Source: Oceanimonas pelagia (GTDB lineage: Bacteria > Pseudomonadota > Gammaproteobacteria > Enterobacterales > Aeromonadaceae). Taken from it: a stretch of 64,000 nucleotides of DNA. Under the pieces are notes generated by a model, which searched no databases, was not told the DNA's origin, and was given only the letters and a program-made list of their open reading frames with translations. Below are positions 1,851 through 26,862 of this stretch, one piece after another (the first letter of the stretch is position 1; each line of letters opens with the position of its first letter). The translations under genes were made by a program, and so were the position numbers. The stretch lies in contig NZ_CP118224.1 in the NCBI RefSeq assembly GCF_030849025.1, positions 790,001-854,000 of the forward strand. The letters are read 5' to 3'.

Positions 1851-4157
1851 ATGGCGAAAGCGGTACGACACCAGGACAAACACGGCAAGGCGGATGCTGA
1901 AAAGCAACGTTGCCATGATGGCATGGAGCAGCAACAGGAGCTGTTGATTCAAGGAGCCAGCTGTGCCGGCTGTGTCAAAAAAATTGAAGCGGCCTTGCAA
2001 AGCGTGCCTGGTGTCACCCATGCCGAAATGAATTTTGCTCAGCGTACTGTCAGTGTTGAAGGGGCGGTCGACGCCAGCATCCTGATCAAGGCGATAGAGC
2101 AGGCCGGCTATGGCGCACAAACTCAGTCTGCAGACAGCGATGACGACGCCCTGGAGGAAAAAGAAAAAGCCGACCGTGCCTACTACAAACGCCTGATGCT
2201 GGAGATGACCATTGCTCTTGGCCTGGGTGTGCCCTTGATGATTTATGGGCTGCTTATCGGTGAAATGACCGTCACCACAACCACCGAGCGCATTGCCTGG
2301 CTGCTGGTTGGCCTGCTGACACTGGGAGTGATGCTCTTTTCCGGAAAGCATTTTTATGTAGGGGCCTGGCAGTCCTGTAAAAATCATTCTGCCAACATGG
2401 ATACCCTGATTGCCCTGGGCACGGGCACAGCCTGGCTGTATTCGATGGTAGTGGTGTTTTTCCCCCAGGTCGTACCCGACATGGCCCGCCATGTTTATTT
2501 TGAAGCGACCGCCATGATTATTGGCCTGATCGATCTGGGGCTGGCACTGGAGCTGAAAGCGCGGGGGCGCACTTCAGAAGCCATTAAGCGCTTGATTGGC
2601 CTTCAGCCCAAAACGGCGCGTGTCATTCGCGATGGCAATGACATGGATATTCCCATCGAGCAAGTCAGGTTGCATGACCTGGTTCGAGTACGCCCCGGAG
2701 AGAAGGTGCCGGTAGACGGTGAAGTCATTGAAGGTCATACCGCCATTGATGAATCCATGCTGACCGGAGAGCCCATGCCGGTGGAAAAAGCGGAACAGGA
2801 TGAGGTGGTGGCGGGCACCATCAATAAAACGGGGTCGATTGTGTTCAAGGCGACCCGGGTCGGTAAGGACACGGCTCTGGCGCAAATTATCGGTATGGTA
2901 AAACGGGCCCAGAACTCCAAGCCGCCCATTGGCCGGCTGGCGGATGTGATTGCTGCGTATTTTGTCCCTGTGATCATGATGATTGCCATCGTCAGTGCGT
3001 TGGCCTGGCTGAATTTTGGGCCTGAACCGGCAGTGGCCTTTGCGGTGGTATCGGCGACCACGGTATTGATTATTGCCTGCCCGTGCGCCCTGGGTCTGGC
3101 CACGCCCATGTCGGTGATGGTGGGCGTTGGCAAGGCCGCAGAGGCGGGTGTGCTGATCCGCAATGGCGAAGCTCTGCAAACTTCCTCCAAAATCACCGCC
3201 ATGATCCTGGATAAAACCGGCACCATTACCCTGGGTGCCCCCAAGGTGACGGACATTGTAACGGTGGACGGGGTTGACGAGGCCGGGGTGTTGCAACAGG
3301 TTGCCAGCCTGGAATCCGGCTCTGAACACCCCCTGGCCTTGGCTGTGGTCGAGTCGGCCAAAGAGCGTGGTATTAAACCCTTGGCCGTTACCGGATTCAA
3401 CGCCATTGCCGGTCACGGTGTCGAGGCGGTTGTCGAGGGTAAAAACCTGTTGTTTGGCAACGAAAAGTTAATGAAGGATCAGGGTGTTGCCCTTGATGAC
3501 TTCGTTGACAAGGCGCAGCAGCTGGCCGCCGAGGCTAAAACCCCCATGTATTTTGCCGTGGATGGCAGGCTGGCGGCACTCATTGCCGTGGCCGACCCTA
3601 TCAAGGAAGACTCCATTGCGGCTATCAAGCGTCTGCAACATAACGGTATTCGTGTGGTCATGCTGACTGGTGACAACCGTGCCACGGCCAAGGCTGTGGC
3701 GGAAAAGGCCGGTATCAAGGAATTTTTTGCCGAGGTTCTGCCGGAGGACAAGTCCAAAAAAGTACAGGAACTGCAAATGCAAGGGGAGGTGGTCGGCATG
3801 ACCGGTGACGGCATCAACGATGCGCCGGCATTGGCGATGGCCAATGTGGGGTTTGCCATCGGCACCGGCACCGATGTGGCGATTGAGAGTGCCGACATTA
3901 CCCTGATGCGTGGTTCACTGCATGGTCTGGCCGATGCCATTGCCGTGAGCAAGGCGACATTGCGTAACATCAAACAAAACCTGTTTGGTGCCTTTATTTA
4001 CAATATTGCGGGTGTGCCCGTTGCCGCCGGTTTGCTGTACCCCTTCTTTGGGCTTCTGCTAAGCCCGGTCATTGCGGGGGCCGCCATGGCGTTTTCCTCG
4101 CTGACGGTGGTCACCAATGCCAACCGCCTGAGACTGTTCAAAACCCGGGAGCACTAA
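1851..4157 (+). CDS. copA: Cu(I)-translocating P1B-type ATPase
   Basis: 768 residues from ATG 1851, preceded by AAGGAAACC. It exports Cu(I) from the cytoplasm. There is one N-terminal heavy-metal domain with GASCAGC (Cys38, Cys41), then paired membrane helices. The actuator TGE lies in TGEPMPVEK (near 303), the transmembrane CPC in [10 protein letters not shown] (near 410), the phosphorylated Asp in DKTGTIT (near 454), the P1B-specific HP motif in SEHPLA, and the hinge in TGDGINDAP (near 650). The N-terminus also has a short His-rich lead (HQDKHGK). It lies between a cytochrome gene and a second cupredoxin gene on the same strand. No clear CueR-type palindrome was seen in the 176 bases upstream. 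Confidence 0.96.
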
Positions 4158-4169
4158 GGAGGAGGGGGA

Positions 4170-4523
4170 ATGATTTTAGTTAACGTACTTGGCGTTTTGC
4201 TCATTGCCTTGATTGTCTGGTGGTTTTGGCTATATCAACCCCAGGCAACCGACCTGGGTGCAAGCGAACTGACCATTGTGGTGGAAAATGGCACCTATCA
4301 GCCGGCGCGCATCCAAGTGCCGGCCAATCAATCCGTGGTCTTGAGTTTTTTGCGTAAAGACTCGTCCCCCTGCTCCGAGACGGTTTTGTTCCCGGCGTTG
4401 AAGCTCAGCGAGACCTTGCCATTAAACAAGGTCAAGAACATCACACTGCCGGCGATGCAGGAGGGTGAATATGACTTTCATTGCCAGATGCAAATGTACC
4501 GAGGCCGGCTTCTGGTGGTGTGA
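4170..4523 (+). CDS. Membrane-anchored cupredoxin-domain protein
   Basis: 117 residues. An N-terminal membrane helix (residues 1-22) is followed by an EfeO/cupredoxin-like beta domain with Cys in SSPCSE, and Cys and Met in FHCQMQM near the C-terminus. It starts 12 bases after copA with the strong site AGGAGGGGG, so it is almost certainly co-transcribed and perhaps translationally coupled. Proteins of this type accompany CopA in many marine gammaproteobacteria and probably accept or buffer copper at the periplasmic face. The exact copper site is not certain because the usual N-terminal His ligand is not obvious. Confidence 0.75.
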   Translation: MILVNVLGVLLIALIVWWFWLYQPQATDLGASELTIVVENGTYQPARIQVPANQSVVLSFLRKDSSPCSETVLFPALKLSETLPLNKVKNITLPAMQEGEYDFHCQMQMYRGRLLVV

Positions 4524-4609
4524 GGGATAAAGAAAGATCTGCAATGGAGTCAGGTGCGAACCTGTCGGTTTGAAACGCCGTTATCGATGTGATTGAGCTG
4601 AGGTATGCC

Positions 4610-4897
4610 ATGAATAAAAAACCGTCATTCTTGTCGACGCCCAGAGGGTGGCTCATTTTAGGTGTGGTTGCTTCACTCACTTACTTCTTGTTGGTCGAGC
4701 ATAAACAGCACCTGTTTATCTTTTTACCCTATCTTATTTTTTTGCTGTGTCCATTAATGCACCTGTTTATGCACAGAGGGCACAAGCATGGCGAACATCA
4801 CCATCATGAGCCTGGTGCCGATGAGACCAAGGAAGAAGCTTATCGTCGGGGGTTGGAGCAGGGGCGTCGAGAAGCTAAAGACAAACCAGAGGATTAA
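4610..4897 (+). CDS. DUF2933 family small membrane protein
   Basis: 95 residues from ATG 4610; GAGCTGAGGT upstream decides this start over an earlier in-frame codon. Two closely spaced hydrophobic segments (about 16-30 and 36-54) are followed by a His-rich cytoplasmic or periplasmic stretch (HRGHKHGEHHHHEP) and a charged tail. The pattern fits DUF2933, whose members lie in copper and silver resistance clusters. The His cluster suggests metal binding. No enzymatic role is known. Confidence 0.75.
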   Translation: MNKKPSFLSTPRGWLILGVVASLTYFLLVEHKQHLFIFLPYLIFLLCPLMHLFMHRGHKHGEHHHHEPGADETKEEAYRRGLEQGRREAKDKPED

Positions 4898-4990
4898 CAT
4901 GTAGTTGGAGGGGTAACAGTAATTACACTGCTACAAGAGTTTCGATGTTATTTGTACTGAAACACAGTTACTCATATCAGGAGAAATATC

Positions 4991-5431
4991 ATGAAAAAGT
5001 TAATTTTCGCTTTAACCCTGTCCTCCCTGTTCGCAATGCCTGCAATGGCTGAACAGGATAACCATCATCAGCAAGGCCAGAATATGCCCTTTCAGGGGGA
5101 TATGATGATGAACCATGAGCAGATGATTACGATGCGTGAACATATGCGATCGGCTGCTGACACCATGATGCAATTGCAGGGAGAAACCGATCCCGAAAAA
5201 CGTCAGGCTCTGATGCAGGAACACCTGGAACAGATGCAGGAAGGCATGCAGATGATGGACATGATGCATGAGGGTAATGATGACCAGCTCCCAATGCCCA
5301 ACATGATGGATATGTTGCAGCAGCGCATGAACATGATGAACGAAAATATGGATATGACGAAGATGATGATGGACCAGATGCAAATGCATGAAAGTGAACA
5401 GCGGCGTGAGCAAATGCACAGGGATGAATGA
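4991..5431 (+). CDS. Methionine-rich periplasmic protein, probable copper buffer
   Basis: 146 residues with a clear signal peptide cut after AMA (residue 21). Of the 146 residues, 34 are Met, many in MM, MxM and HxxM arrangements such as MQMMDMMHE, with added His. Met-rich motifs bind Cu(I) and Ag(I) in CusF, CopC/PcoE and similar proteins, so periplasmic copper sequestration is inferred. The body reads as amphipathic helix and vaguely recalls the CpxP/Spy fold, but no LTxxQ motif is present. CAGGAGAAAT gives a strong ribosome site. Confidence 0.7.
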   Translation: MKKLIFALTLSSLFAMPAMAEQDNHHQQGQNMPFQGDMMMNHEQMITMREHMRSAADTMMQLQGETDPEKRQALMQEHLEQMQEGMQMMDMMHEGNDDQLPMPNMMDMLQQRMNMMNENMDMTKMMMDQMQMHESEQRREQMHRDE

Positions 5432-5481
5432 TCTAAGGGGGCAGGGACTCTAGCCATGTTTCAATGAAAGGAGGGTTAGGT

Positions 5482-5832
5482 ATGGCGAATCATAGAGCAG
5501 GGATTAACCCGGGGTTTTTGACAACCCATACCCTGAGTCTGACTGAAATGAGTCGGGCCAATATGGATGCCATGCTGGCGGAGATTGAAGCGCAGCACTG
5601 GGTTGACACGCTGGCGCTGGATAGTAAAACGAAAAAGCTGAAGGTTGCTTATGAGGCATCATCTCATAACATCGATGATATTATCGACATCATTGAGCAG
5701 CATGGTGCGGCGTTAAAAGATAGTTGGTGGAGTCGTACAAAACTTGGCTGGCAGCGGCAAACCGACGAGAACATTAAAAATAATGCAAAGCATGAGCCGC
5801 ATTGTTGTAATAAAGCCCCACCTGGCCATTGA
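5482..5832 (+). CDS. HMA-like small protein lacking the CxxC metal motif
   Basis: 116 residues from ATG 5482; AAAGGAGG at 5467-5474 fits this start, while the ATG at 5464 overlaps that site. The central segment (about residues 18-78) has the beta-alpha-beta-beta-alpha rhythm of heavy-metal-associated domains: LSLTEMSRANMDAMLAEI, then KKLKVAYEA, then DDIIDIIEQHG. The CxxC loop is absent, and a pair of Cys lies in the tail (HCCNK). It ends the forward copper run. Similar proteins are annotated as cation transporters or hypothetical proteins in copper clusters. Function is inferred only from fold and context. Confidence 0.6.
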   Translation: MANHRAGINPGFLTTHTLSLTEMSRANMDAMLAEIEAQHWVDTLALDSKTKKLKVAYEASSHNIDDIIDIIEQHGAALKDSWWSRTKLGWQRQTDENIKNNAKHEPHCCNKAPPGH

Positions 5833-5843
5833 AATAATGTATC

Positions 5844-5877
5844 AGCCCATGCTGTCGGTTATATGCTCGCATGGGCT
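5844..5877. terminator. Inverted repeat between convergent genes
   Basis: A 9-base perfect inverted repeat (5844-5852 with 5869-5877) and a 16-base loop lies between the HMA-like gene and the convergent kinase gene. No long T-run is present. It may act as a two-way terminator. Confidence 0.4.
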
Positions 5878-9278: not shown

Positions 9279-9878
9279 TTACAGCAGCCCCTGGCGATGT
9301 GCTTCAAACCACACAAAAGGCGAGCGCTGTTTCAGAAATTCAGCAGTATAGAAGCCCTGTATGTAATCAGAAAAATGGCGGGCACGAACTTCCTTGCAAC
9401 CCTCGTCATCAAGTTTCAGCCGCTGAATGCAGGTGTCCACCTCGTCCAGTAATGGGGACTGCAGCTCTGGATTGGGGTAAATATGGCCCGAAATCAGTTC
9501 AAGACGAAACAGGCCGTTTTCGATGACAAAAGGGTCCAGCACATCGTCATAATCGTTTTTCCGGCTGTTCATGCGCGAGCAGGCCAGGCGGTAGTTGGAC
9601 CACTCGTAAGCCTGCTCTGGCCGTGCCGATTTGGCCACAAAGTGATCTACGCTACCAGCTCCGGTAATACGCTCAAAATGAATGGCCAGATAGGCGCAAA
9701 TGCCCTGATAGCTTTCATACAAGGCAGGTAAACAGGCGCGCCAGTATGGCTGCAACTGGGTACCTTCGGGCAGGGGCTGGTTGATATCAATACCGGCCTT
9801 CTTCAGATGGGCCAGTCCTTTTTGCCGCACTTCGGCATCGAAGTCAGCGGGCTCGGGCTGAGGGGTTACATGCAGCAT
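9279..9878 (-). CDS. HNH endonuclease of an ATPase-HNH defence cassette (PtuB-like)
   Basis: 199 residues from ATG 9878, one base after the upstream ATPase stop codon, so translation is probably coupled; AAGGGTGG supplies the ribosome site. The core VDHFVAKSARPEQAYEW, then NYRLAC and NSRKND, is the HNH pattern of the TIGR02646/PtuB family that pairs with ATPases in Septu and retron Ec78-type systems. His of VDHF and the Asn residues are the likely metal-site residues. It is expected to be the DNA- or RNA-cleaving effector, gated by the ATPases. Confidence 0.8.
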   Translation of the reverse strand: MLHVTPQPEPADFDAEVRQKGLAHLKKAGIDINQPLPEGTQLQPYWRACLPALYESYQGICAYLAIHFERITGAGSVDHFVAKSARPEQAYEWSNYRLACSRMNSRKNDYDDVLDPFVIENGLFRLELISGHIYPNPELQSPLLDEVDTCIQRLKLDDEGCKEVRARHFSDYIQGFYTAEFLKQRSPFVWFEAHRQGLL

Positions 9879-9879
9879 G

Positions 9880-11157
9880 TTAGAGCCACCCTTTTTTCTC
9901 GGCCACAAAACGCCACCGCATCCAAAAAGGATCGGTATCACTCAGCACCCGGCGTAGCCGGGCATCCAGTTTTTTTGCCTCATTGGCATTAAAGCCGGGA
10001 TCGCTGAGCGCTTGGGTAGCCTCAGCCAGCACGGCTTCTGCTTCTCTTGAACGGGCACTTTCCAGATCGAAGGCCTCACTGGTCAGCCAGCTTGAGGCAT
10101 CACCCTGGCGAACAAACGGCCGCTGCCGCAGCTTTACCTCGCCTTGCTCCAGGTCCAGGTCAAACCAGGCGTCTTTTACGAGGTCGAACACCGGCTCAAC
10201 CGAGGCCATGATCAACGGCGAATGAGTGGCGGTGATTAACTGCACATCCGGACGGCGGGTCAGCTTTTCCATCACCGACAACAGGGCGGGAATAATACTG
10301 CGTTGCCAGCTGGGGTGAAGGTGCGATTCCACTTCGTCGATCAGAAACACCACCTGGTGAGTGGGCTCTTCCTGCAGCAGGTCAGCGGCTTTGCGATGTT
10401 CTTCCCAGGCCCAGACCAGAAAGTAGGCCAAGGCAATCACTCGGCGAATACCAGAGGAAGCATGCACTACCGGCACATCCTGGCCATAGGGCATGCGAAT
10501 GGTGGGAATATCGCGAGCTTCATCCAGGCTGATGCGGGTCAGATCGCCTGGCTGCAGCACTTCCTTGTCGGAAGGGGACAATACCTTCAGCACCTGCACC
10601 AGGTGATTAAACGCCTCGCCTTTTTCCTTTTGCCAAGTGCCCCAGTCCTGAATAAGGCCATTACAGAGCACGGTGCCATCATCGGCCTTGAGCCCCTGCC
10701 AGACTTCATCGGGCGCAAACACATAGGCAGGGCGGCGCTCTTGTATATCCACGCCATTGCGGGTTTGCCAGTAGTTGCGGGCCGGATCCCATACGGCAAA
10801 GCTGCCGTCGGTCATGGCATAAAGCACCAGCCCAGGGTTGGCCGGACGTCCGGCGCTGCCGGTCCAGGCTTCTTCCCGGCGCTCATAGCTGCTTTCGTAG
10901 CTGACGTCTTTCACCTTGCCCGAGAAGGAGAAGCTGATGGCCGACTCACCCTTGTGACGAGGCTGCACCTTTTTGCCTACTGTCAGCTTGGGGTTGATCT
11001 CGGATGGCCATTTACGGGTCATCGACCACCAGGCTATATCCAGCAAAAAACTTTTGCCCAGGCCGTTGTCCCCGGTGATCAGATTCAGGCGCTTGCCAAA
11101 CTCAAGCGCCATGGCGGGAGCCGGACCCACATTGGTCAGTTTCAGTTCTTTAATCAT
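9880..11157 (-). CDS. AAA ATPase of the ATPase-HNH cassette (PtuA-like)
   Basis: 425 residues from ATG 11157 (MIKELKLTNVGPAPAM). An upstream in-frame ATG at 11199 would overlap the previous gene. It has the ABC/SMC-like ATPase layout of one polypeptide: Walker A GDNGLGKSF (near residue 32), a signature-like SSGIRRVIALAYFLV, Walker B VVFLIDEVESHLHP, and the switch His in ATHSPLIMAS. This is the RecF/OLD/PtuA class that couples to HNH nucleases. It follows the first ATPase gene by 19 bases and precedes the HNH gene by one, forming a three-gene operon. It is the paralogue of the relic at 13980-14045. Confidence 0.8.
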   Translation of the reverse strand: MIKELKLTNVGPAPAMALEFGKRLNLITGDNGLGKSFLLDIAWWSMTRKWPSEINPKLTVGKKVQPRHKGESAISFSFSGKVKDVSYESSYERREEAWTGSAGRPANPGLVLYAMTDGSFAVWDPARNYWQTRNGVDIQERRPAYVFAPDEVWQGLKADDGTVLCNGLIQDWGTWQKEKGEAFNHLVQVLKVLSPSDKEVLQPGDLTRISLDEARDIPTIRMPYGQDVPVVHASSGIRRVIALAYFLVWAWEEHRKAADLLQEEPTHQVVFLIDEVESHLHPSWQRSIIPALLSVMEKLTRRPDVQLITATHSPLIMASVEPVFDLVKDAWFDLDLEQGEVKLRQRPFVRQGDASSWLTSEAFDLESARSREAEAVLAEATQALSDPGFNANEAKKLDARLRRVLSDTDPFWMRWRFVAEKKGWL

Positions 11158-11176
11158 GATCAGACTTGTTGCTCCG

Positions 11177-12274
11177 TTATGGTCTTCCGCCCAACACATT
11201 TTTTTCCCAGAGTTCGCCTATCGAGTAATCTTCCAGCCAAGGTTCTAATTCTTGTGCATCCAGGCGCTTGAACACTGAGGCGCCTTGCTCCAGCTCCACC
11301 ACGATCAAATCCGCGATGGAAAAATGATTGAGCAGCGAAGACGATTGGGTGGCCACAATTACCTGGGTGTGGGTTGCGGCCTGGTGGATAAGTTCAGCCA
11401 GGATCACCATGGCCGTAGGGTGCAATCCCAGTTCCGGTTCGTCAATGATAATGGCGGTGGGAGGCTTGTGCTGCATCAGAGCGGTTACCAGGCAAATAAA
11501 GCGAATGGCGCCGTCCGACAGCTGACTTGGCCACAGCGCATAGTCACTGTTTTTTTGCCTCCAGAGCAGGCGTATTTGCTGCTCTTCGGTGGCCAGTGTT
11601 TCGGGTTTGAGCACAAAGTCATCAAAAAACGGGATGGCCAGGCGCACTATTTTGCAGATCCGGCAATACACCACCGGCGCTTCCTGCTGCAGCCGGTAGA
11701 GAAAAGCGGCCAGGTTAGCGGCATCCTCGCGCAGGTGCTCATTATCGTTAAGAGCACAGCTGCGTTTAACACCAGCGGTATCGCTGGTATCGTGAAAGTG
11801 ATAGACCTGCCAGCTGGCGATGGCGTTAAAGCAGTCGCTGGCTATCTTCTGCAGGATCCCCTGTTCCCTTGCCTTGTGCAGCTTGGCCTCGACATGCCCT
11901 TCACCCAGCCCTGGCAGAGTAATGCCATCAACGGGCTCATCAACATAGAGTTGCTCCCGGGCAAAGGTAAAGGCGCCATCCGGGGTGGGTTTTAGCACAA
12001 TGTTGTAGCCATTGGCACCAAAGCGAATGGCGGTGGTGAGTACCGAGGTTTCTTTGCTGCCGAAGCTCAGAATGCGCTCGGCACCGCCCTGCAGGCTGCT
12101 CCATAGTTGCAGCCTGCCCTTAACCAGCTCGGGTAACATACGGAAGTAGTCAACAAAGTTGCTTTTGCCTGCGCCGTTGGCGCCAATCAACACATTAAGC
12201 GAGCCTAGCGGTAGCCGCTCCAGATGGCGAATGGACTTGAAACCACTGATCGACAGATGCTTGATTGTACTCAT
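11177..12274 (-). CDS. AAA_21-type SMC/ABC-like ATPase, first gene of the cassette
   Basis: 365 residues. Walker A GANGAGKSN (residues 32-40), signature region LSDGAIRFICLVTALM, Walker B AIIIDEPELGLHP and switch region VIVATQSSSLLNHF give a complete ATPase of the single-chain DUF/AAA_21 family found in defence islands. There is no nuclease or TOPRIM domain at the C-terminus. It heads the operon with a second, different ATPase and an HNH protein. Solo members are common, so it could be an independent gene that happens to be adjacent; the 19-base spacing argues for a joint unit. Confidence 0.8.
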   Translation of the reverse strand: MSTIKHLSISGFKSIRHLERLPLGSLNVLIGANGAGKSNFVDYFRMLPELVKGRLQLWSSLQGGAERILSFGSKETSVLTTAIRFGANGYNIVLKPTPDGAFTFAREQLYVDEPVDGITLPGLGEGHVEAKLHKAREQGILQKIASDCFNAIASWQVYHFHDTSDTAGVKRSCALNDNEHLREDAANLAAFLYRLQQEAPVVYCRICKIVRLAIPFFDDFVLKPETLATEEQQIRLLWRQKNSDYALWPSQLSDGAIRFICLVTALMQHKPPTAIIIDEPELGLHPTAMVILAELIHQAATHTQVIVATQSSSLLNHFSIADLIVVELEQGASVFKRLDAQELEPWLEDYSIGELWEKNVLGGRP

Positions 12275-12371
12275 TTGGCTGCCATGTGAATGTTGTATGT
12301 CGGATTATGCCTGATCTCCGCAGCTCATGCTTTGGCCCTGTTGCTAGGATAAGTGGCAATTTTAGCTACTT

Positions 12372-12643
12372 TTATTACTGAATCCTGGTGTGCTGGACGA
12401 AGGGCTGCGCTCCGGACTGTTCTTGTTCGGCATGCGCCGTACCGGCAAGACCACCTTTTCGGCCGATGCCGCCGCCGGTTATGCCAACCAGCTGGGGAGG
12501 GAGGTCAAGGTGGAGGAAATCCAGCCCGTGCTCAATGTGATGGTGGTGGAAAACCTGGTGATGCGCACCGGCCACGGGGTGTACTCGGTGGCCGATCCCT
12601 TTGTGCAGGAAATAGGCGGGAGCGGCTGGACCTGTTCTGGTAA
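12372..12643 (+). pseudogene. Internally deleted, frameshifted ATPase gene relic
   Basis: The plus-strand frame reads RSGLFLFGMRRTGKTTF, an N-terminal Walker A segment, and after only about 20 residues runs into VLNVMVVENLVMRTGHGVYS and DPFVQEI, which looks like the extreme C-terminus of the same ATP-binding family. About the whole middle of the gene is therefore missing. One base is also missing near 12615, moving the natural end (RERLDLFW, stop at 12641-12643) into another frame. It is convergent with the intact ATPase gene. It is clearly non-functional as an ATPase. Confidence 0.65.
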
Positions 12644-13846
12644 TCACTCCTGCTCGGTATGGCGCCAATCCTGCTGCGGCATGGATCGTTTCATAAACTC
12701 GTCGAACAGGGGCACGGTAAAGGCAGTATCACCATGGCTGGGGCTGTAGATCATGCCCTTGTTGATCAGGTTGCTGCGAGTGGGGGCCAGGCTGGTCACT
12801 TCTCTGCCCAGTAGTGATGCGATATCGCCGGAACGATGCGGTCCCGGCCCCAGCTCTGCCATGGCGCGAATATAGCGTTTTTCTCCCGGGGTAAGCCGAT
12901 CGAAGCGAACCCTGAAAAAGCTTTCATCCAGAGCGGCAATCGCTTCCCGGGCGGCAAGCTGCACATCCGCCAGCGTGATCGGGCTTTCGGTTGCCACATC
13001 CCAGGCATGTTTGCCCCATTCCTGCAAAAAGTAGGGGTAGCCCCGGGTGTGACGTATGATTTCCTGTACCGCCTGCGGCTCGTAGCTCACCCCTTCTTCT
13101 TCCGCCGGTTTTACCAGGGCGGTGGCAGCATCCGACTCTGACAGCGGACCGACCTCGGGATAGTCGAACAGGCGCTCCGCATAGGACTTGGCACTGCCTG
13201 CCTTACCTCTTAGCTGAGGCAAGCCTGCTCCGATGAGCGACACCGGCAATCTGTCCAGCGCACAGCGGTGTAAGGCGCTGATCAAGGCCGATAGCTCTTC
13301 TTCCTGCACATACTGCAGCTCGTCAATGCACATCACCAGGGCCGTATTGGCTTCCCTGGCCGCCACGCCCACTTGCTCGAGCAGGGCAGTTAAATCCCCT
13401 TCCAGATCCCCGTTATCAGCCAGACCCGGTTCCGGCTCCAAATCCAGGCCTACTTCAATATCACCGAACTTGACCTTGAGTGCGGTGGCAAAGCCCGCCA
13501 ACGCCCTAAGCCCTTGCTGGGCATATTCCTTGGCCGACTCCACCCGGCTCAGCCGCAACAGGGCCAGGCGCAGTTGGGGAGCCAGCAAGGCGGGCAGAGA
13601 GCGGCTTTCCGGTGTTTCGATACGCAGGGTATGGATGCCTTCTTTCTCAGCATCCAGCCGCATCCGTTCCAGCAACACGGTTTTACCCACACCGCGCAAT
13701 CCTACCAAAATCATGCTCTTGGCAGGACGTCCAAGCCTCAAGCGGGCAATGGCGATGCGCACGGCTTCCCGCAATGCTTCACGGCCGGCCAGCTCCGGCG
13801 GCTGGGTACCTGCGCCTGGTGCATAGGGGTTGGTGATGGGATCCAT
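12644..13846 (-). CDS. STAND/AAA_16-like P-loop ATPase with C-terminal winged helix
   Basis: 400 residues. Walker A is GLRGVGKTVLLERM (near residues 50-57) and Walker B ALVMCIDELQYV (near 170). A sensor segment follows (VSLIGAGLPQL), then a lid with RHTRGYPYFLQEWGKHAW. The last 80 residues, beginning LTPGEKRYIRAMAELG, look like a winged helix-turn-helix. The layout resembles Orc1/Cdc6-like and STAND ATPases. No partner gene is adjacent in an operon; it lies alone among ATPase relics. A sensor or switch role in defence is inference only. Confidence 0.7.
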   Translation of the reverse strand: MDPITNPYAPGAGTQPPELAGREALREAVRIAIARLRLGRPAKSMILVGLRGVGKTVLLERMRLDAEKEGIHTLRIETPESRSLPALLAPQLRLALLRLSRVESAKEYAQQGLRALAGFATALKVKFGDIEVGLDLEPEPGLADNGDLEGDLTALLEQVGVAAREANTALVMCIDELQYVQEEELSALISALHRCALDRLPVSLIGAGLPQLRGKAGSAKSYAERLFDYPEVGPLSESDAATALVKPAEEEGVSYEPQAVQEIIRHTRGYPYFLQEWGKHAWDVATESPITLADVQLAAREAIAALDESFFRVRFDRLTPGEKRYIRAMAELGPGPHRSGDIASLLGREVTSLAPTRSNLINKGMIYSPSHGDTAFTVPLFDEFMKRSMPQQDWRHTEQE

Positions 13847-13952
13847 TATTGCATCCTTACATTGGTTTATCTGATTTCAGTAAGTTTATATAAGGTAGCA
13901 ATAAAATCAAACTTAGGCCTTGGTTGGGATAGGCTACTTGCAAGCCTGATCT

Positions 13953-13992
13953 GGCATGGCATGGCATGGCATGGCATGGCATGGCATGGCAG
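13953..13992. repeat. GGCAT pentanucleotide tandem array
   Basis: Seven perfect GGCAT units in a row (13953-13987), then GGCAG. It lies at the broken edge of an ATPase relic and looks like slippage expansion of the ATGGC present in the intact paralogue. Confidence 0.95.
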
Positions 13993-14045: not shown

Positions 14046-14218
14046 TTCGGTGACGGCCAGCTGCCGGCCCTGATAATGCAGTGTGCCAGCGCATTGTGCC
14101 GTCATCTTGGCTCCTGGTGGTTAGCACCTTTGATCTTTGGGAGCATATCACATCGACCCAGGCGGCCGGGAAAAGGTAAACTATGGGGTTTACTGCTGGC
14201 TGTGTGATGAGGGAAGGC

Positions 14219-14495
14219 GTGAAGTTATCCAAACTGACTCTGCAAAACTATCGCCGATTTGAGGACTTTGAGGTCACATTCCATCCCGAGTTGACCGTGA
14301 TCGCTGCGCGTAAGTGTCAGGGTAAACCCGCAGTACTGAAAGCCATTGCTGCTTGGCCACTTTGTGGGCGCCTTTGACATGGGAAAATTACCGCAGCCCC
14401 TTATGTCGAAAAAAAAAGACCTAGACCGTTTGGTTGGGCTGGTTGATGAATATGATGATGGCTTGTTTGTCTCTTGCCTGGAAGCTGGTTGTGCG
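14219..14495 (+). pseudogene. Broken N-terminus of a PtuA/RecF-like ATPase gene
   Basis: The plus strand reads KLSKLTLQNYRRFEDFEVTF and then HPELTVIAARKCQGK, the usual start of PtuA-like ATPases, but the Walker A motif is degraded (expected GxNGxGKT, seen ARKCQGKP). Frame changes follow: FVGAFDMGK is read in one frame and GKITAAPYVEKK in the next. Nothing of the Walker B half remains. It is a decayed fragment standing just upstream of the DUF262-hsd operon. Confidence 0.7.
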
Positions 14496-14693: not shown

Positions 14694-16424
14694 ATGGCGA
14701 AGACACTTGAGGCCCACGACAAACTGATCCGTGAGATTTTCGAGGGCAGCTACCAGTTCGAGATTCCAGACTACCAGCGCCCCTACGCCTGGACGACCGA
14801 GCAGGCTGGGGAGTTGTTCGACGATCTGATCTCGGCGATGCAGGATGCCCGTGTCTCCGGCGCGACCAGCCAGTACTTCCTCGGCAGCATCGTTCTAATC
14901 AAGAACGACCGGGAGCCCAAATCGTCGGTGGTCGATGGCCAGCAGCGCTTGTCCACGCTGACGATGCTGTTCGCGGTGCTGCGCGAGGCCATGCCAGACG
15001 CTGCCGACGACATCACTGATTTCCTCTACAAAAAGGGCAAGGTCAGCCTCGGTGAGAAAAACGAGTACCGCCTGACAGCTCGCGAGGAAGATGCCGACTT
15101 CTTTCGCTTCAACATTCAGGAGCCGGGAGGTATCGCGCAGCTGGTCGTCAGCACCGACAAGTTGAAAGACAGTCGTCTGCGTTACCGCGAGAACGCCACA
15201 CTGCTGCTCGAAAAGGCCAAGGCGCTGTCACCTGCCGATCTGAACGCCCTGTGGAAGTTCCTCGCCAACGACTGCTCGCTGGTTGTCATCTCAACGCCGG
15301 ACCTCGAAGCCGCATACCGCATCTTCTCAGTGCTCAACAACCGGGGACTCGACCTCGCTCCCATCGATATCATCAAGGCGCAGGTGCTGGGCCTGATCCG
15401 TACCACGGCAGGCGACGTCAAGAGCCGCGCCTACGCCAAGGAGTGGAGCCGCATCGAGACCGAGCTGGGCCGTGACGCCTTCGGTGACCTTTTTGGCCAC
15501 ATCCGCAGCATCTATGCCAAGAAAAAGCAGAAGTACATTCTGGTCAAGGAATTCCAGGAACACGTCACCGAATACAAGGCCCCCATCGATCTCATCGACA
15601 AGGTCATCAAACCCTACTCTGAGGTGTGGGACTTCGTGCGCAATGCCGACTTCGAGGCCACGGAGCACGCCGAGACCATCAACGAACACCTGTCTTGGCT
15701 CAATCGTGTGGATTTCAAGGACTGGGTGCCCCCGGCCCTGGTCTATTTCAAGCGCTTTCGGCAGCAGCCCAAACTGCTCGCAGAGTTTTTCCAGTCGCTG
15801 GAACGCCTGACCTACTTCCTACTGGTTACCAAGGTGGGCATCAACGAGCGCATCGAAACCTACGCTGCGCTCATCAAGGAAATAGAGCCCGGAGCCTTCG
15901 ACGGCGATCGGGCTGCGTTGAATACTCTGACCCTCACGGACAAACAGAAGCGTGAGTTCGTGGCCGCGCTCGACGGTAACATTTACCGCAATCTGCCCAA
16001 AGCCCGCATGGCGTTGGTATTGCGCCTTGAATCCTTGGTGCGCGCTCCTGGCGTGCAGTTGCAAAACGCCGTGTCGCTGGAGCACGTCCTGCCGCAAACA
16101 CCGCCCGAGGGTTCGGACTGGATCAAATGGTTCCCGGATGAAGACGAGCGAGATGGCTGGACGCATCGTCTTGCCAACCTGGTTCCGCTGGATAGGAACA
16201 AGAACTCGTCTGCCAGCAACTATGACTTTGCCAAGAAGAAGGATGCTTACTTCAGGGGCAAAGGAAAGGCGTCGCCCTTCGTGCTGACGCAAGAAGTCAG
16301 ATCAGAAAACGAGTGGACCCCCACACTTCTGGCTGAGCGCCAACAACGCCTTGTGGGTGAACTCAAGAATCATTGGAAACTCGCTGTCACCTCAGACAAT
16401 GCCAGTGCCTCAGCGGCGAATTGA
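14694..16424 (+). CDS. GmrSD-like DUF262/DUF1524 nuclease
   Basis: 576 residues from ATG 14694 with AGGAAAGAAG upstream. The N-terminal DUF262 half has DYQRPYAW (near 24) and the nucleotide-binding VDGQQRLSTL (near 80). The C-terminal DUF1524 half has an HNH-like site, SLEHVLPQ (near 463), followed by HRLANLVPLDRNKNSSASN. Fused proteins of this kind resemble GmrSD type IV restriction enzymes that cut modified phage DNA with NTP hydrolysis. It begins the operon leading into hsdM only 11 bases downstream, suggesting it works with, or guards against phages resistant to, the type I system. Confidence 0.88.
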   Translation: MAKTLEAHDKLIREIFEGSYQFEIPDYQRPYAWTTEQAGELFDDLISAMQDARVSGATSQYFLGSIVLIKNDREPKSSVVDGQQRLSTLTMLFAVLREAMPDAADDITDFLYKKGKVSLGEKNEYRLTAREEDADFFRFNIQEPGGIAQLVVSTDKLKDSRLRYRENATLLLEKAKALSPADLNALWKFLANDCSLVVISTPDLEAAYRIFSVLNNRGLDLAPIDIIKAQVLGLIRTTAGDVKSRAYAKEWSRIETELGRDAFGDLFGHIRSIYAKKKQKYILVKEFQEHVTEYKAPIDLIDKVIKPYSEVWDFVRNADFEATEHAETINEHLSWLNRVDFKDWVPPALVYFKRFRQQPKLLAEFFQSLERLTYFLLVTKVGINERIETYAALIKEIEPGAFDGDRAALNTLTLTDKQKREFVAALDGNIYRNLPKARMALVLRLESLVRAPGVQLQNAVSLEHVLPQTPPEGSDWIKWFPDEDERDGWTHRLANLVPLDRNKNSSASNYDFAKKKDAYFRGKGKASPFVLTQEVRSENEWTPTLLAERQQRLVGELKNHWKLAVTSDNASASAAN

Positions 16425-16435: not shown

Positions 16436-18826
16436 ATGCAGAAGAAACAACAACAAGACCAAAGCCAGATCAAGTGGATCTCCGACTTCATCTGGAACAT
16501 TGCCGACGACCGCCTGCGTGATGTCTACGTGCGCGGCAAATACCGTGATGTGATCTTGCCCTTCACCGTACTGCGGCGGCTCGATGCCGTACTGGAAGCC
16601 ACCAAGGAAGCGGTGCTGGAGCGCAAGAGGTTCCTCGACACCCACAAGGTGGCCGAGCAGGATGGCGCGTTGCGCATGGCGGCAGGTCAGGCATTCTACA
16701 ACGTCTCCGAATTCACGCTGGCAAAGCTGAAGTCCAGCGCGGCGGGGCAGCGCCTGCGTGATGACTTCATTGCGTATCTGGATGGTTTCTCGCCCAACGT
16801 GCAGGAGATCCTCACCAAGTTCAACTTCCGCAACCAGATCCAGAAACTGGTGGATTCCCACGTTCTTGGCTACCTGATCGAGGACTTCCTCGACCCAGAG
16901 GTCAACCTCGCGCCGCTGCCCGTCAAGGATGCCGACGGTCGCATCAAGCTGCCCGCACTGGACAATCACGGTATGGGCACGGTGTTCGAAGAGCTGATCC
17001 GCCGTTTCAACGAAGACAACAACGAAGAGGCAGGCGAGCACTTCACCCCGCGCGACGTGGTGCAGCTCATGGCCAAGCTGCTGTTCCTGCCGGTGGCCGA
17101 GCGCATTGAGTCCAGCACCTATTCGCTCTATGACGGCTCCTGCGGCACCGGCGGCATGCTCACAGTAGCCGAGGAAGCGCTACACGAGCTGGCCGAGCAG
17201 CATGGCAAAGAGGTATCCATCCACCTGTTCGGGCAAGAAATCAGCGACGAAACCTACGCCATCTGCAAGGCTGACCTGCTCTTGAAGGGGGAAGGCGAAG
17301 AAGCTGAGAACATCGTCGGAGGACCTGATAAATCGACCCTGTCCGCCGATCAGTTCCGCAGCCGCGAATTTGATTTCATGATCTCCAACCCGCCCTATGG
17401 CAAGAGTTGGAAGACCGATCTGGAGCGCATGGGCGGCAAGAAGGAATTCAATGATCCGCGTTTCATCGTCAGCCACGCGGGTAACCCCGAGTTCAAGCTC
17501 ATTACCCGTTCCAGCGACGGGCAGCTTATGTTCCAGGTGAACAAGCTGCAAAAGATGAAACACAACACACCGTTGGGCAGCCGCATTGCGCTGGTGCATA
17601 ACGGCTCGGCGCTGTTCACCGGCGACGCAGGCCAGGGCGAGAGCAACATCCGCCGCTGGGTGCTGGAAAACGACTGGCTCGAAGCCATCATCGCCCTGCC
17701 GCTCAACATCTTCTACAACACCGGTATCGCCACCTACATCTGGGTGCTGGCCAACCAGAAGGCCGCACACCGCAAAGGCAAGGTTCAGCTGATTGACGCA
17801 TCGCAGTGGTTCCAGCCGCTGCGCCGCAATCTCGGCAAGAAGAACTGCGAACTCTCGGATGGAGACATCCAGCGAATCCTCGACCTCTACCTCGATGAGG
17901 CACAGGAAACCGCCCCAGAAACTGAAAAGTGCAAATGGTTCGACACCCAGGACTTCGGCTACTGGAAGATCACCGTCGAGCGCCCGTTGCGCCTGAAAAG
18001 TCAGCTTTCAGACGAACGCATCGAGCCCCTGCGCTTTGCGTCTGGTGACGAGGCGCTGCGCGCCGAGATCTACGCCACCCATGACGAGGCGCTTTATACC
18101 GAGTTCGCCAAGCGCAAACCGGCCATCGAGGCATGGCTGAAAGGCGAGGAAGAGAACGAAGACGAAGACAACGACAGCGGCGATGACAGCGAGGCTCCCG
18201 CCGCGCGCAAGGCCGTGCCCGCCAAGCGCCGCAAGAAGCTGCTCGACGCATCGACGTGGCAGCGTGACAAGGGGTTGATGGAGGTAGCGCAACGGGCGAA
18301 GAAGGCACTGGGCAGCACCGTTTTCGACGACCACAATGAGTTTCGCACACGCTTCGATGCTGCGTGCAAGGCGCAGGGAGACAAGCTCAGCGCACCGGAG
18401 AAGAAGGCCATCTACAAGGCAGTCAGCTGGCGCGACGAAGCCGCGCCGCCGGTCATCGCTAAACGCACCAAACTCAAGTCGAACGACTTCTTTGAACCAA
18501 GCTTCGATGGAGCATACTTGGAAACCGTGGGCAAGGATCGCTTCATTGTCGAGTACGAGCCAGACAGCGAGCTGCGCGACACCGAGCAGGTGCCGTTGAA
18601 AGAATCGGGCGGTATCGACGCCTTTTTCGAGCGTGAAGTGCTTCCACACGCGCCGGACGCCTGGATCGCCACAGACAAGACCCAGATCGGCTACGAGATT
18701 TCCTTCACCCGCTATTTCTACAAGCCAGCGCCGCTGCGCACACTGGCCGAAATCCGCGCCGACATCCTCGCGCTGGAGCAACAGAGCGAGGGGTTGTTGC
18801 ACAAAATCGTGGGGAGCGCGCAATGA
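16436..18826 (+). CDS. hsdM: Type I restriction-modification methyltransferase HsdM
   Basis: 796 residues. An HsdM N-terminal helical domain (WISDFIWNIADDRLRD) is followed by the N6-adenine methylase core with SAM motif I DGSCGTGGML (near 230) and catalytic motif IV NPPYG (near 317). A long C-terminal extension of about 300 residues includes an acidic linker (GEEENEDEDNDSGDDS) and accounts for the size above the usual 500 or so. It methylates the host recognition site as M2S and is part of the R2M2S complex. The ATG overlaps nothing upstream; its stop overlaps hsdS (ATGA). Confidence 0.94.
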   Translation: MQKKQQQDQSQIKWISDFIWNIADDRLRDVYVRGKYRDVILPFTVLRRLDAVLEATKEAVLERKRFLDTHKVAEQDGALRMAAGQAFYNVSEFTLAKLKSSAAGQRLRDDFIAYLDGFSPNVQEILTKFNFRNQIQKLVDSHVLGYLIEDFLDPEVNLAPLPVKDADGRIKLPALDNHGMGTVFEELIRRFNEDNNEEAGEHFTPRDVVQLMAKLLFLPVAERIESSTYSLYDGSCGTGGMLTVAEEALHELAEQHGKEVSIHLFGQEISDETYAICKADLLLKGEGEEAENIVGGPDKSTLSADQFRSREFDFMISNPPYGKSWKTDLERMGGKKEFNDPRFIVSHAGNPEFKLITRSSDGQLMFQVNKLQKMKHNTPLGSRIALVHNGSALFTGDAGQGESNIRRWVLENDWLEAIIALPLNIFYNTGIATYIWVLANQKAAHRKGKVQLIDASQWFQPLRRNLGKKNCELSDGDIQRILDLYLDEAQETAPETEKCKWFDTQDFGYWKITVERPLRLKSQLSDERIEPLRFASGDEALRAEIYATHDEALYTEFAKRKPAIEAWLKGEEENEDEDNDSGDDSEAPAARKAVPAKRRKKLLDASTWQRDKGLMEVAQRAKKALGSTVFDDHNEFRTRFDAACKAQGDKLSAPEKKAIYKAVSWRDEAAPPVIAKRTKLKSNDFFEPSFDGAYLETVGKDRFIVEYEPDSELRDTEQVPLKESGGIDAFFEREVLPHAPDAWIATDKTQIGYEISFTRYFYKPAPLRTLAEIRADILALEQQSEGLLHKIVGSAQ

Positions 18827-20229
18827 CGGTGGCGATCGCGTACCCGAGCTACCGGCAACCGAAGATGCGCTGGTTGCCCGCTGTGCCGGAACACTGGAAC
18901 GAGCAACGCGCCAAGACCTTCTTCCGCGAGGTGGATGAGCGCTCGAAGACCGGACAGGAAGAGCTGCTGTCAGTATCTCACCTCACCGGCGTTACCCCGC
19001 GCAGCCAGAAGAAGGTCACGATGTTCAAGGCGGCGAGCTACGTCGGTTCCAAGCTGTGTCAACCTGGCGACATCGTCATCAACACGCTGTGGGCATGGAT
19101 GGCTGCGTTGGGTGCGAGTAGGCACGTGGGCATCGTCAGTCCCGCCTATGGCGTGTACCGCCCGCACAGTGCCGACAGCTTCAACCCGGCCTATCTCGAT
19201 TACTTGTTGCGTACTCGTGCCTACGTGGCCGAATACATCGGGCGCTCGACCGGGATTCAATCCTCCCGCCTGCGCCTGTACCCGAACCAGTTCCTCGATA
19301 TCTCGCTGATCCAGCCACCGCGCCCCGAGCAAGACCAAATCGTTGCTTACCTGCGGGCGCAGGACGCGCACATCGCCCGCTTCATCAAGACCAAGCGCGA
19401 TCTCATCAAGCTGCTCACCGAACAGAAGCTGCGCATTATCGACCACGCCGTCACGCGCGGCCTCGATGCATCGGTGGCGCTGAGGCCTTCCGGCATCGAG
19501 TGGCTGGGCGAGATGCCGGAGCATTGGAAAGTTCAACGACTCAAGAACGTTGCCCATGTGGTCCTGGGAAAAATGCTGACCACCGAAGCCAAGGGGGGGG
19601 ACGGCGATTTCAAGCCCTACCTGCGCTCGACGAATGTGCAATGGATTAAACCCGATGTGTGCGACGTAAAGGAAATGTGGATTGCTAAGGCTGAGATGGC
19701 GCAGCTCCGCGTTCGCAAGGGGGACTTGCTAGTCAGTGAAGGTGGCGAAGTTGGCCGTACCTGCATGTGGAACGATGAACTGCTGGAGTGTTACATCCAG
19801 AACTCAGTGCATCGGGTTGCCGCCAAGCCGACGATGCTTCCGGAGTTCCTATTTCATCAGTTCTTCGTGTATGGCAAACGTGGCCGCTTCAATGCCATCG
19901 TGAACCGCGTCAGCATCGCGCACCTGACGCGCGAAAAGCTCGTGACGATTCCGTTCACGGTACCACCCGTCGAGGAACAACAGGCCATCTGCCGCTGGAT
20001 CACCGACGAATGCAAGCCGCTAGACGACGCCATCGCCCGCACGGAAGAAGAAATCAAGTTGATCCGCGAATACCGCGACCGCCTGATTGCCGATGTGGTC
20101 ACCGGTCAGGTGGACGTGCGGGGCTGGCAGCCCGGCCCGGACGACGTAGTGGACGACGCGGCGCTGGCCGCGCTGGGCGATGAACAGGAAGATGTGACCG
20201 AAGAGGAGGATGGTGATGGCGAAGACTGA
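18823..20229 (+). CDS. hsdS: Type I restriction specificity subunit HsdS
   Basis: 468 residues with two target-recognition domains, each opened by the usual W-L-x-x-x-P-E-H-W pattern (RWLPAVPEHW near 25; WLGEMPEHWKVQRL near 226) and each closed by a conserved helix (PRPEQDQIVAYLRAQD; PPVEEQQAICRWITDE). The start overlaps hsdM by four bases. A run of eight G bases at 19593-19600 lies in the second recognition domain, where slippage would truncate the protein. The C-terminal tail is acidic (EEEDGDGED). Confidence 0.93.
   Translation: MTVAIAYPSYRQPKMRWLPAVPEHWNEQRAKTFFREVDERSKTGQEELLSVSHLTGVTPRSQKKVTMFKAASYVGSKLCQPGDIVINTLWAWMAALGASRHVGIVSPAYGVYRPHSADSFNPAYLDYLLRTRAYVAEYIGRSTGIQSSRLRLYPNQFLDISLIQPPRPEQDQIVAYLRAQDAHIARFIKTKRDLIKLLTEQKLRIIDHAVTRGLDASVALRPSGIEWLGEMPEHWKVQRLKNVAHVVLGKMLTTEAKGGDGDFKPYLRSTNVQWIKPDVCDVKEMWIAKAEMAQLRVRKGDLLVSEGGEVGRTCMWNDELLECYIQNSVHRVAAKPTMLPEFLFHQFFVYGKRGRFNAIVNRVSIAHLTREKLVTIPFTVPPVEEQQAICRWITDECKPLDDAIARTEEEIKLIREYRDRLIADVVTGQVDVRGWQPGPDDVVDDAALAALGDEQEDVTEEEDGDGED
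19593..19600 (+). repeat. G8 homopolymer inside hsdS
   Basis: Eight consecutive G bases at about codon 257 of hsdS, in frame for the full-length protein in this sequence. Tracts of this kind are prone to slippage. Confidence 0.9.
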
Positions 20230-23200
20230 CACCAGCGAGCGCTGGTTCGAGGCACGCGTGGTGCGCGGCCTGACCGGCGTGCCGCAGCCCGAGTACAGCC
20301 ATGAGCTGGCTCCCACGGACTTCGCCGCCACCCACAACGGCTACGTGCAGGGCAAACCTACCGACTACAACCGCGACGTGGCCCTGGATGTGACGCAGTT
20401 GCTGGCCTTCTTGCAGGTCACCCAGCCCAAGGTGGTAGAGACGCTGGAACTGGCGGCGGACGGCATTAAGCGCACCCAGTTCCTGCACCGGCTGCAAGGC
20501 GAGATCACCAAGCGCGGCGTGGTGGACGTGCTGCGCAAGGGCGTGAGCCACGGGCCGGTTCACGTCGATCTCTACAAGCTGCTTCCCACACCGGGCAACA
20601 CCGCCGCCGCAGACGCTTTCGGCAAGAACATCTTCAGTGTCACCCGGCAGGTGCGCTACAGCAACGACTCCGGCAACGAACTGGACTTGGCGATCTTCAT
20701 CAACGGCCTGCCAGTGCTGACTTTTGAGTTGAAGAACTCGCTGACCAAGCAGACCCTGGCCGACGCCATCGTCCAGTACCAGACCACGCGCAGCCCGCTG
20801 GAGCTGCTATTCCAGTTAGGCCGTTGTGTGGCGCATTTTGCCGTTGATGACGCGGAGGTCGCGTTCTGCACCGAGCTCAAGGGCAAGGCGTCGTGGTTCC
20901 TGCCATTCAACCAGGGCTGGAACAGCGGCGCGGGCAACCCGCCCAACCCGGATGGCTTGAAGACCGACTACCTGTGGAAGCAGGTGCTGACCCGCGAATC
21001 GCTGGCCAACATCATCGAGAGCTACGCGCAGGTGGTGGAGGAGGAGGAAACCGGCGCCAGCGGCAAGAAACGCAAGAAGCGCAAGCAGATCTTCCCGCGT
21101 TTCCACCAATTGCGCACGGCACGGGCCCTGCTGCGCCGCGCCCACAACGACGGAGTGGGCAACCGATATCTAATTCAACATTCGGCAGGCAGCGGCAAGA
21201 GCAACACCATTGCCTGGCTGGCGCACCAGTTGGTGGAGTTGCGTCGCAAGGACGACCCGCTGACGGCGCAGTTCGACTCCATCATCGTCATCACCGACCG
21301 GCGTGCGCTGGACACACAGATCGCTCGCACCATCAAGGGTTACGACCACGTGGCGTCGATCTTCGGCCACTCCGACAACGCTCAGGAGCTGCGAGGCTTC
21401 TTGCAAAAGGGCAAGAAGATCATCGTCACTACGGTGCAAAAGTTCCCCTTCATCCTCGATGAGCTGGGCGACCTCTCCGGCAAGCGCTTCGCGCTGTTGA
21501 TCGACGAGGCGCATTCCAGCCAAGGCGGCAAGACCACGGCGCGGATGCACGAAGCCCTCGGCGGCAAAGCCGCCGATACAGGCACGACCGGCAAGGTTGC
21601 CGAGGAGGAATTCGAGGAAGACAGTACGCAGGATGCGGTTAACGCGGAAATCGAGAAGCGCATCGCCTCTCGTAAGCTGCTGCTCAACGCCAGTTACTTC
21701 GCGTTCACAGCTACCCCCAAGAACAAGACGCTGGAGTTATTCGGCGAGAAGACTCTTGTTGGCGACAAGGTTCAGTTCCGCTCGCCCGAGGAGCTGACCT
21801 ACACCACCAAGCAGGCCATCCAGGAGAAGTTCATCCTCGACGTGGTGGAAAATTACACCACCTACGACAGCTTCTACCAAGTGGCCAAGACGGTGGCGGA
21901 CGACCCGGAATTCGACAAGGTGAAGGCGCTGAAGAAAATCCGCCACTACGTTGAATCGCATGACAAGGCCATCCGCCGCAAGGCCGAGATCATGGTCGAC
22001 CACTTCATCGCACAGGTCGCGGGCAAGCAGAAGATCGGCGGCAAGGCGCGGGCCATGATCGTGTGCAACGGCATAGCACGGGCCATCGACTACTGGCGCG
22101 AGGTGTCGGACTACCTTACGCAGATCAAGAGCTCGTACAAGGCCATAGTGGCGTATTCGGGTGACTTCGAAATCGCAGGCGAGAAGAAAAACGAAGCTGA
22201 CTTGAACGACTTCCCTAGCAAGGACATTCCGGCGAAATTCAAGCAGGATCCTTATCGATTTTTAATTGTTGCCAACAAGTTCGTCACCGGCTTCGATGAG
22301 CCCTTGCTGCACACTATGTACGTGGATAAGCCGCTGGCGGGTGTGCTCGCGGTTCAGACTCTATCGCGCTTGAACCGGGCACATCCGCAGAAGCACGATA
22401 CTTTCGTGCTCGACTTCGCGGACAACGCCGAGGCTGTGAAGGCGGCGTTCCAGGACTACTACCGAGCCACTATCCAAACAGGCGAAACCGACGCCAACAA
22501 ATTGCACGATCTAAAGGCCGAACTCGACGGGCAGCAGGTGTATAGCTGGCAGCAGGTAGAAGACTTGGTGGCGCTGTACTTGAGCGGCGCGGACCGGGAC
22601 AAGCTCGACCCTATCCTCGACACTTGCGTGGCCGAGTACACGGAAAAGCTCGGCGAGGACGATCAGGTCAAGTTCAAGGGCAAAGCCAAGGCTTTCCTTC
22701 GCAGCTACGGCTTTCTTGCCGCGATCCTGAGCTACGGCCATCCGACGTGGGAGAAGTTGTCGATCTTCCTGAACTTCCTCACCCCCAAGTTGCCCGCCCC
22801 GAAAGAGGATGACTTCTCCAAGGGGGTGCTGGAGACCATCGACATGGACAGCTACAGGGTGGAGGCCAAAGCGGCGCTGAAGATGAGGATGGCCGACGCC
22901 GATGCCACGGTAGACCCAGTGCCGTCGGGCGGCGGTGGCGGCAAGGGCGAAGCAGAAATCGACAAGCTCTCCGCGATCATCAAAACCTTCAACGACCTGT
23001 TCGGCAACATTGAGTGGAAGGACGAGGACAAGATCCGCAAGGTCATTGCAGAGGAAATCCCGGCGCGGGTGGCGCAGGACAAGGCTTACCAGAACGCGCA
23101 GGCTAACTCCGACAAGCAAAACGCCAAACTGGAGCACGACAAGGCGCTCAACCGCGTGGTGCTGGAGTTGCTGTCCGATCACACCGAACTGTTCAAGCAG

Positions 23201-24778: not shown

Positions 24779-24794
24779 GGGATCCTCCAGGCAT

Positions 24795-24818
24795 AAAAAA
24801 CGCCGCTCAGTGGCGGCG
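24795..24818 (-). terminator. Hairpin with T-run upstream of radC-like gene
   Basis: A six-base GC stem (24801-24806 with 24813-24818) followed on the minus strand by six T. It separates the small membrane peptide gene from the radC-like gene. Confidence 0.7.
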
Positions 24819-24852
24819 CGTAAAAGGGGTATTTATAACCAGGGCGTGAGGG

Positions 24853-24942: not shown

Positions 24943-24956
24943 TCTGAGTCTCGTTT

Positions 24957-26839: not shown

Positions 26840-26862
26840 GGTGAGTCTCCTTAAACGCATAA

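Follow-up and report, generated by a model that had tools for sequence, protein, structure and literature searches.

A Septu-type gene pair preceded by a HEC-01A-type ATPase without its usual DUF4276 partner in Oceanimonas pelagia

Organization of the Locus

The window, that is, the whole stretch of 64,000 nucleotides of Oceanimonas pelagia analysed here, contains three minus-strand genes, named A, B, and C (Table 1), which fill positions 9279-12274, with 19 nt between A and B and a single nucleotide between B and C. The starts of B and C were ATG codons at 11157 and 9878, respectively, and no internal stop was present in A, B, or C, so that the ORFs confirmed the compact unit described in the initial annotation, with its three members intact. 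Its claim of two different SMC/ABC-like ATPases also held, as Pfam AAA_21 matched both A and B while their best PADLOC families differed, corresponding to two different ABC/SMC-head-type ATPases. The PtuB-like HNH protein proposed for C was recognized by PADLOC, with Pfam HNH reaching only an E value of 0.021, under its cut-off. No promoter-like match was detected in the A-B gap, in a scan that gave no more promoter-like sites than shuffled sequences.

Table 1. Features of the locus and its surroundings (positions within the window).
Feature	Position	Strand	Description
Heavy-metal P-type ATPase	1815-4157		
Gene C	9279-9878	minus	199 aa, PtuB-type HNH protein (PADLOC)
Gene B	9880-11157	minus	425 aa, PtuA-type ATPase (PADLOC); clade often nested in BREX operons
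A-B gap	11158-11176	minus	19 nt; spot where DUF4276 begins in other A loci
Gene A	11177-12274	minus	365 aa, HEC-01A-type ABC ATPase (PADLOC)
Shortened ATPase remnant	12353-12749	plus	390-aa version complete in G716 (L162 7986-9158, plus)
AAA_16 ATPase	12644-13846	minus	400 aa (Pfam)
N-terminal stub of another PtuA, different from B	14198-14374	plus	retron-Ec78 PtuA-like, E 1.2e-9 (NCBIfam)
GmrSD gene	14694-16424		Pfam
Type I R-M genes	16436-23314		PADLOC
Tyrosine integrase	30665-31858		
tmRNA gene	32035-32395		

Defence genes surround the trio, as had been proposed, with GmrSD and the type I restriction-modification (R-M) genes on one side, and the heavy-metal P-type ATPase and the integrase are also present. 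The tyrosine integrase and the tmRNA gene are only 176 nt apart, which suggests that the region is likely an ssrA-integrated island; no far end of this island was found among direct repeats. The integrase region near the tmRNA (24281-32395) also includes RDF-like, YqaJ, DUF932, YfjJ, and RadC genes. A short tandem repeat with a 10-nt unit (TGGCATGGCA) was located at 13952-13991. In homologous loci (L) from other genomes (G), shorter copies of the AAA_16 ATPase were found in L007 of Zobellella (234 aa) and in L162 (216 aa). In addition, L007 carries nearby, at 331-1428 of the minus strand, 365 aa of a PtuA from another PADLOC clade.

Genes B and C Encode a Septu-Type Pair

The products of B and C were assigned by PADLOC to PtuA1 (E 2.9e-187) and PtuB1 (E 5.5e-72), respectively, in agreement with the Septu-type ATPase-HNH pair initially annotated, and their arrangement, a PtuA-type ATPase gene followed after 1 nt by a PtuB-type HNH gene, is that of Septu type I. 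In the Septu type II or type I-A retron, PtuAB is preceded by a reverse transcriptase gene (PMC8565338), whereas in our case, considering the locus only, the gene in front encodes an ATPase. Against the NCBIfam retron-Ec78 models, which are equivalogs of the retron Ec78 effectors and not of all Septu proteins, B scored 68.2 bits as PtuA (cut-off 500) and C 32.9 bits as PtuB (cut-off 150); being far below these cut-offs, B and C constitute a divergent Septu-type pair.

Protein B retains 139 of the 140 positions conserved at 90% or more among 91 homologues, including G32-K35 and D274-E275, and C retains 46 of the 48 positions conserved at this level among 82 homologues, including D78-H79, N95, and N104. 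By analogy, these conserved positions would correspond to catalytic residues. Protein C also has K107, as well as the sequence CAYL at 61-64. Within its PtuB clade, C61 is kept in 82/82 homologues and Leu is found at 64 in 74/82, at the position of the second Cys of the canonical PtuB motif, CAYC, and the clade could possibly represent a zinc-less HNH. Comparison of C by sequence with solved chains gave no match.

Gene A and Its DUF4276 Partner

Protein A was assigned by PADLOC to HEC-01A (E 2e-139), the ATPase of a two-gene candidate system, which upholds the initial view that it is distinct from the Septu definition. Its match to an AriA model (1.1e-24), as well as that of B (9.8e-41), was far below those to their best PADLOC families. 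It is full length, with ATP-site motifs, and retains 73 of the 76 positions conserved among 48 DUF4276-linked homologues, in an alignment of copies of at least 270 aa that excluded L057, L115, L116, and L137 as well as redundant entries from the genomes of the window, L007, and L066. A conserved stretch in its C-terminal part, LWEKNVLGG, could be where A contacts a partner. The predicted structure of A (pLDDT 73.8) matched only generic SMC, RecN, Rad50, and PtuA heads.

Among the 51 A loci without PtuAB that were sampled, 48 have DUF4276 (HEC-01B) encoded directly after A. These loci are not independent, as some pairs (e.g., L147/L150) are nearly identical, and several of the DUF4276 copies are partial; the A stub of G716 (L151) and the copies of G698 and G709 stand outside these 51. 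Gene B was beside A in none of the 51 (flanks of 1.5 kb, or 2.5 kb on plasmids, some cut by contig ends). In the phylum sample, 31 of 398 genomes, including that of the window, carried A; among the 36 matches outside the window's genome, 29 were fetched and counted, and DUF4276 was right behind A in 27 of them, the exceptions being L091, with an integrase-like frame next, and L110. A further locus, G352:C14 (= L134), has DUF4276 and was left out of the A count. In the family, A was present in 13/75 genomes, with DUF4276 in 11/11 full copies besides those of the window's genome, G698, and G709. On plasmids, where 15 records at 43% identity or more were selected from 247 in all, DUF4276 was found in 10 of the 11 loci fetched, and in six annotated ones its start and the end of A overlap by 1 to 8 nt. 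No relatives of A were found on viral contigs.

In the window, the gene adjoining this HEC-01A is PtuA and not HEC-01B. No DUF4276 was found genome-wide in a search whose positive control gave matches in 4/4 other genomes (a second search, the 14 controls of the first one having remained silent), and the presence of DUF4276 hidden elsewhere in the genome was rejected. Copies of A beside PtuAB were without DUF4276 in 5/8 cases versus 3/51 elsewhere (Fisher p 0.0005, on related and differently sampled rows; 0.012 when counted as three events and 0.058 as two). Genome G716, from the window's genus, presented a complete A-DUF4276 pair and a 71-residue A stub, 94% identical; the 18 kb covered there contained neither B nor C. 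The HEC-01A-DUF4276 pair adjoins methyltransferase and helicase genes in R-M-like operons in L125, L127, L157, and L162, as it does on Aeromonas plasmids.

Residues E18-G19, E22, and D82 are invariant in DUF4276, a pattern that resembles TOPRIM, and on the basis of these residues DUF4276 may be an effector nuclease. Its predicted structure, from an alignment of three sequences only, reached a pLDDT of 42.6, too low to be informative. No match was obtained against solved chains with the single protein or a 28-sequence profile, nor in NCBIfam, and a search of the open-licence literature for DUF4276 found nothing.

Genomic Contexts of the B-C Pair

The surroundings of B were analysed in the best 80 of at least 532 relatives, several of these loci being cut by contig ends near B. 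Within these best 80, a match to C was found in 77, A directly upstream of B without DUF4276 in four (L007, L066, L020, and L024), and HEC-01A with DUF4276 near B in three (upstream in L032, downstream in L026, and as a distant HEC-01A upstream in L057). This low co-occurrence, together with the absence of B from the 51 A loci, does not support the three-gene defence system put forward in the initial annotation; neither does PADLOC, which captures all three proteins as Septu (B and C) plus HEC-01A (A), and not as one system.

In the family, B was present in 5/75 genomes. Three of them belong to the window's genus (its own genome, G698, and G709) and have A in front, broken in G709, and the other two have no A in front. 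In the class sample, B was detected in 2/274 genomes including the window's own, the other one without A. On plasmids, A accompanied B in none of the four loci fetched (4 of 5 places with a match covering 80% of B), and seven B relatives were found on viral contigs, with A beside none. Phage records gave only partial, low-identity matches, both for B and for the A of L024. Across lineages, A, B, and C were not found together in this order more often than apart, consistent co-occurrence being confined to the window's genus (3/3).

BREX genes (clustering with PglX, PglZ, or BrxL, each called with one representative named by Pfam) were present in 29 of these best 80 loci (of at least 532), including L033, which entered the count through a PglZ-like piece 76% identical to the PglZ of L032. 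The usual order was PglX, optional cargo, PtuA, PtuB, PglZ, and BrxL, and PtuA was immediately preceded by PglX in six of the 29 loci, by GmrSD in five, by A in three, and by a TIR protein in two, among others. The order PglX-A-PtuA-PtuB-PglZ was found in L020, L024, and L066. In the window's genome, no BrxL was found. In two of the 29 loci, L028 (266-3888) and L069, PtuAB is preceded inside the BREX operon by an OLD-like TOPRIM ATPase followed by a UvrD-type helicase, which we take to be Gabija-like. Another BREX operon, in L008 of Marinobacterium (2069-5874), contains a second PtuA-clustering ATPase before the PtuAB pair.

Separate Histories and Uncoupled Decay of A and B-C

In the tree of A (60 proteins of at least 270 aa, after removal of duplicates from the genomes of the window, L007, and L066), the copies that are linked to PtuAB and lack DUF4276 require two changes, which cannot separate gain from loss, so that the DUF4276-less A-PtuAB order has at least two origins. 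A single origin, with these copies in one clade, was rejected (AU p 5.47e-31). Both DUF4276-less clades sit among DUF4276-bearing copies, and the A proteins of L020 and L024 are sisters of that of L026, which carries both modules. In the tree of B (92 proteins, quick method), the same label needs four changes, three of them forced by starred branches; L057 was labelled in it as having no A, though a distant HEC-01A and DUF4276 lie upstream.

The A proteins of the window, L007, and L066 form a clade, with L066 as the sister, whereas the B proteins of these three do not: those of the window and L007 group with that of L008, which has no A, and that of L066 is placed elsewhere. Between the window and L066, dS amounted to 0.65 in A and to 2.1 in B. 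Two Marinobacter loci, L030 and L032, share 96.7% identity in PtuA, 96.2% in PtuB, 98.5% in PglZ, and 99.2% in BrxL, but PglX touches PtuA in L030, while A-DUF4276 stands in front of PtuA in L032, where the gene before A is not PglX (no BLAST match to six PglX proteins and no Pfam family). The discordance between the A and B trees and the contrast between L030 and L032 indicate that A enters and leaves beside PtuAB.

Broken versions were also found. Locus L066 (Oceanisphaera) has kept PtuAB and the BREX genes, with an A that is missing 70 residues and its C-terminus. In L007 (Zobellella), the frame of A is kept, C is mostly gone, and B is missing its end; since this A has lost two signature residues (D254N and G255S), the locus does not cleanly illustrate an A that survived its B-C pair. 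The PtuA of L063 is shortened.

Selection on A, B, and C

The dN/dS values, calculated by NG86, were 0.254 (0.153-0.41) for A and 0.109 for B between the window and L007, and 0.122 (0.064-0.193) for A, 0.093 for B, and 0.076 for C in the Desulfobacteraceae pair L020/L024. As a yardstick, 15 hand-chosen pairs of DUF4276-bearing A, with shared rows and without intervals, ranged from 0.028 to 0.131. In the lineage of the window, constraint on A is relaxed but not neutral, and in the L020/L024 pair A is constrained, inside the DUF4276-bearing range. This constraint and the co-occurrence within the genus are the main facts that favour a role for A.

Interpretation of the Trio

The Septu system of E. 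coli B88 needs the Walker motifs of PtuA and the H-N-H residues of PtuB and cleaves tRNA-Tyr (PMC13096335), and in PARIS the sensor is a hexameric ABC ATPase that is paired with a Toprim tRNase (PMC12409363). By analogy with both, B-C would comprise sensor and effector, and A would be a sensor minus its effector. The PtuA ATPase (B) would form an oligomer, sense infection, and control the PtuB HNH nuclease (C), which would then stop phage growth by cutting nucleic acid, the target in the E. coli examples being tRNA. Similarly, A would be the sensing ATPase of HEC-01, a separate pair that resembles PARIS and joins an ATPase to DUF4276, and would have lost the gene of its effector. Taking the family assignments, the intact frames, the missing DUF4276, and the separate histories of A and B-C, as read from the sequences, we consider it reasonably probable that the trio consists of a Septu-type pair and an orphaned HEC-01 ATPase, two modules that met in a defence island. 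The B-C pair is predicted to be the working defence, and A, deprived of its putative effector, is probably idle or only weakly useful here. A new three-part defence machine is most likely not what the locus encodes. In addition, A as a general Septu component was rejected on co-occurrence and trees.

Several facts point nevertheless to the recruitment of A into Septu as its third member, an additional sensor that would have lost its own effector and act through PtuAB: the tight adjacency of A and B (gaps of 19, 19, 12, 3, and 2 nt in the window, L007, L020, L024, and L066, respectively), the repeated emergence (at least twice) of a DUF4276-less A next to PtuAB, the presence of A in front in all three B genomes of the window's genus, and dN/dS values of A that are not neutral (0.254 and 0.122). 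We regard this recruitment as rather unlikely, as most B loci (best 80 of at least 532) are without A, Oceanisphaera has PtuAB with a broken A, A and B re-assort, constraint on A is relaxed in the window lineage, and the published Septu works as PtuA plus PtuB (PMC13096335). A bolder version, which we find unlikely, would be that an OLD/PARIS-type sensor ATPase swapped its effector, losing DUF4276 and being captured by a Septu pair independently in Aeromonadaceae and Desulfobacteraceae, thus giving a two-sensor, one-nuclease Septu. Were recruitment true, effector swapping between ABC-ATPase sensors would be directly testable with one small operon.

The broken versions in relatives (L007, L066, and the A stub of G716), along with the PtuA stub and the shortened ATPase remnant in the flank, could also suggest that the whole locus is a decaying remnant that has lost its defence, but this is improbable considering that the three window genes have no internal stops, that B and C keep nearly all their conserved positions, and that the dN/dS of B is 0.109. 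Finally, it seems very improbable that A works by itself or through an effector encoded elsewhere: even though 3/51 sampled A loci are also without a detected DUF4276 and some constraint persists on A, no DUF4276 was found in the genome and only ATPase families were detected in A by Pfam.

Under the reading that we favour, a Septu-type pair beside an orphaned HEC-01 ATPase, the parts are ordinary and the arrangement is instructive. Adjacency alone is a poor ground for naming new multi-gene defence systems, and a module that sits in a BREX or R-M slot can look fused to its neighbour once one of its halves is gone.

Comparison with Known Systems

No A-PtuAB trio was found by title or abstract among the matches listed in the open-licence literature on Septu with further components and on HEC-01. 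The HECs stem from a preprint devoted to embedded systems (Payne 2024, as cited in PMC12988326), and HEC-01 is mentioned in PMC12724379. OLD-ABC ATPases that are embedded in BREX and have TOPRIM or HNH nucleases as partners are already described (PMC12839542); similarly, both modules occur in BREX operons of relatives (L020, L024, and L066, and with DUF4276 L026 and L032), whereas the window's genome is without a detected BrxL.

The logic of A, a sensor ATPase with a separate effector, would by analogy be that of PARIS (AriA ATPase and AriB Toprim nuclease), but A matches an AriA model only at 1.1e-24 and has PtuA, not AriB, as the next gene. With HEC-01 (Hma-embedded candidate 1, ATPase plus DUF4276), the locus shares a full-length HEC-01A, and it differs in that HEC-01B (DUF4276) was not found at the locus or in the genome. 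The closest correspondence of B and C is with Septu type I, by PADLOC families, gene order, the 1-nt gap, and the conserved ATPase and HNH-type positions. They depart from it in their low scores against the NCBIfam retron-Ec78 models and in the CAYL of C versus the CAYC of canonical PtuB, and the locus as a whole departs from it in carrying an extra ATPase gene, A, in front of the pair.
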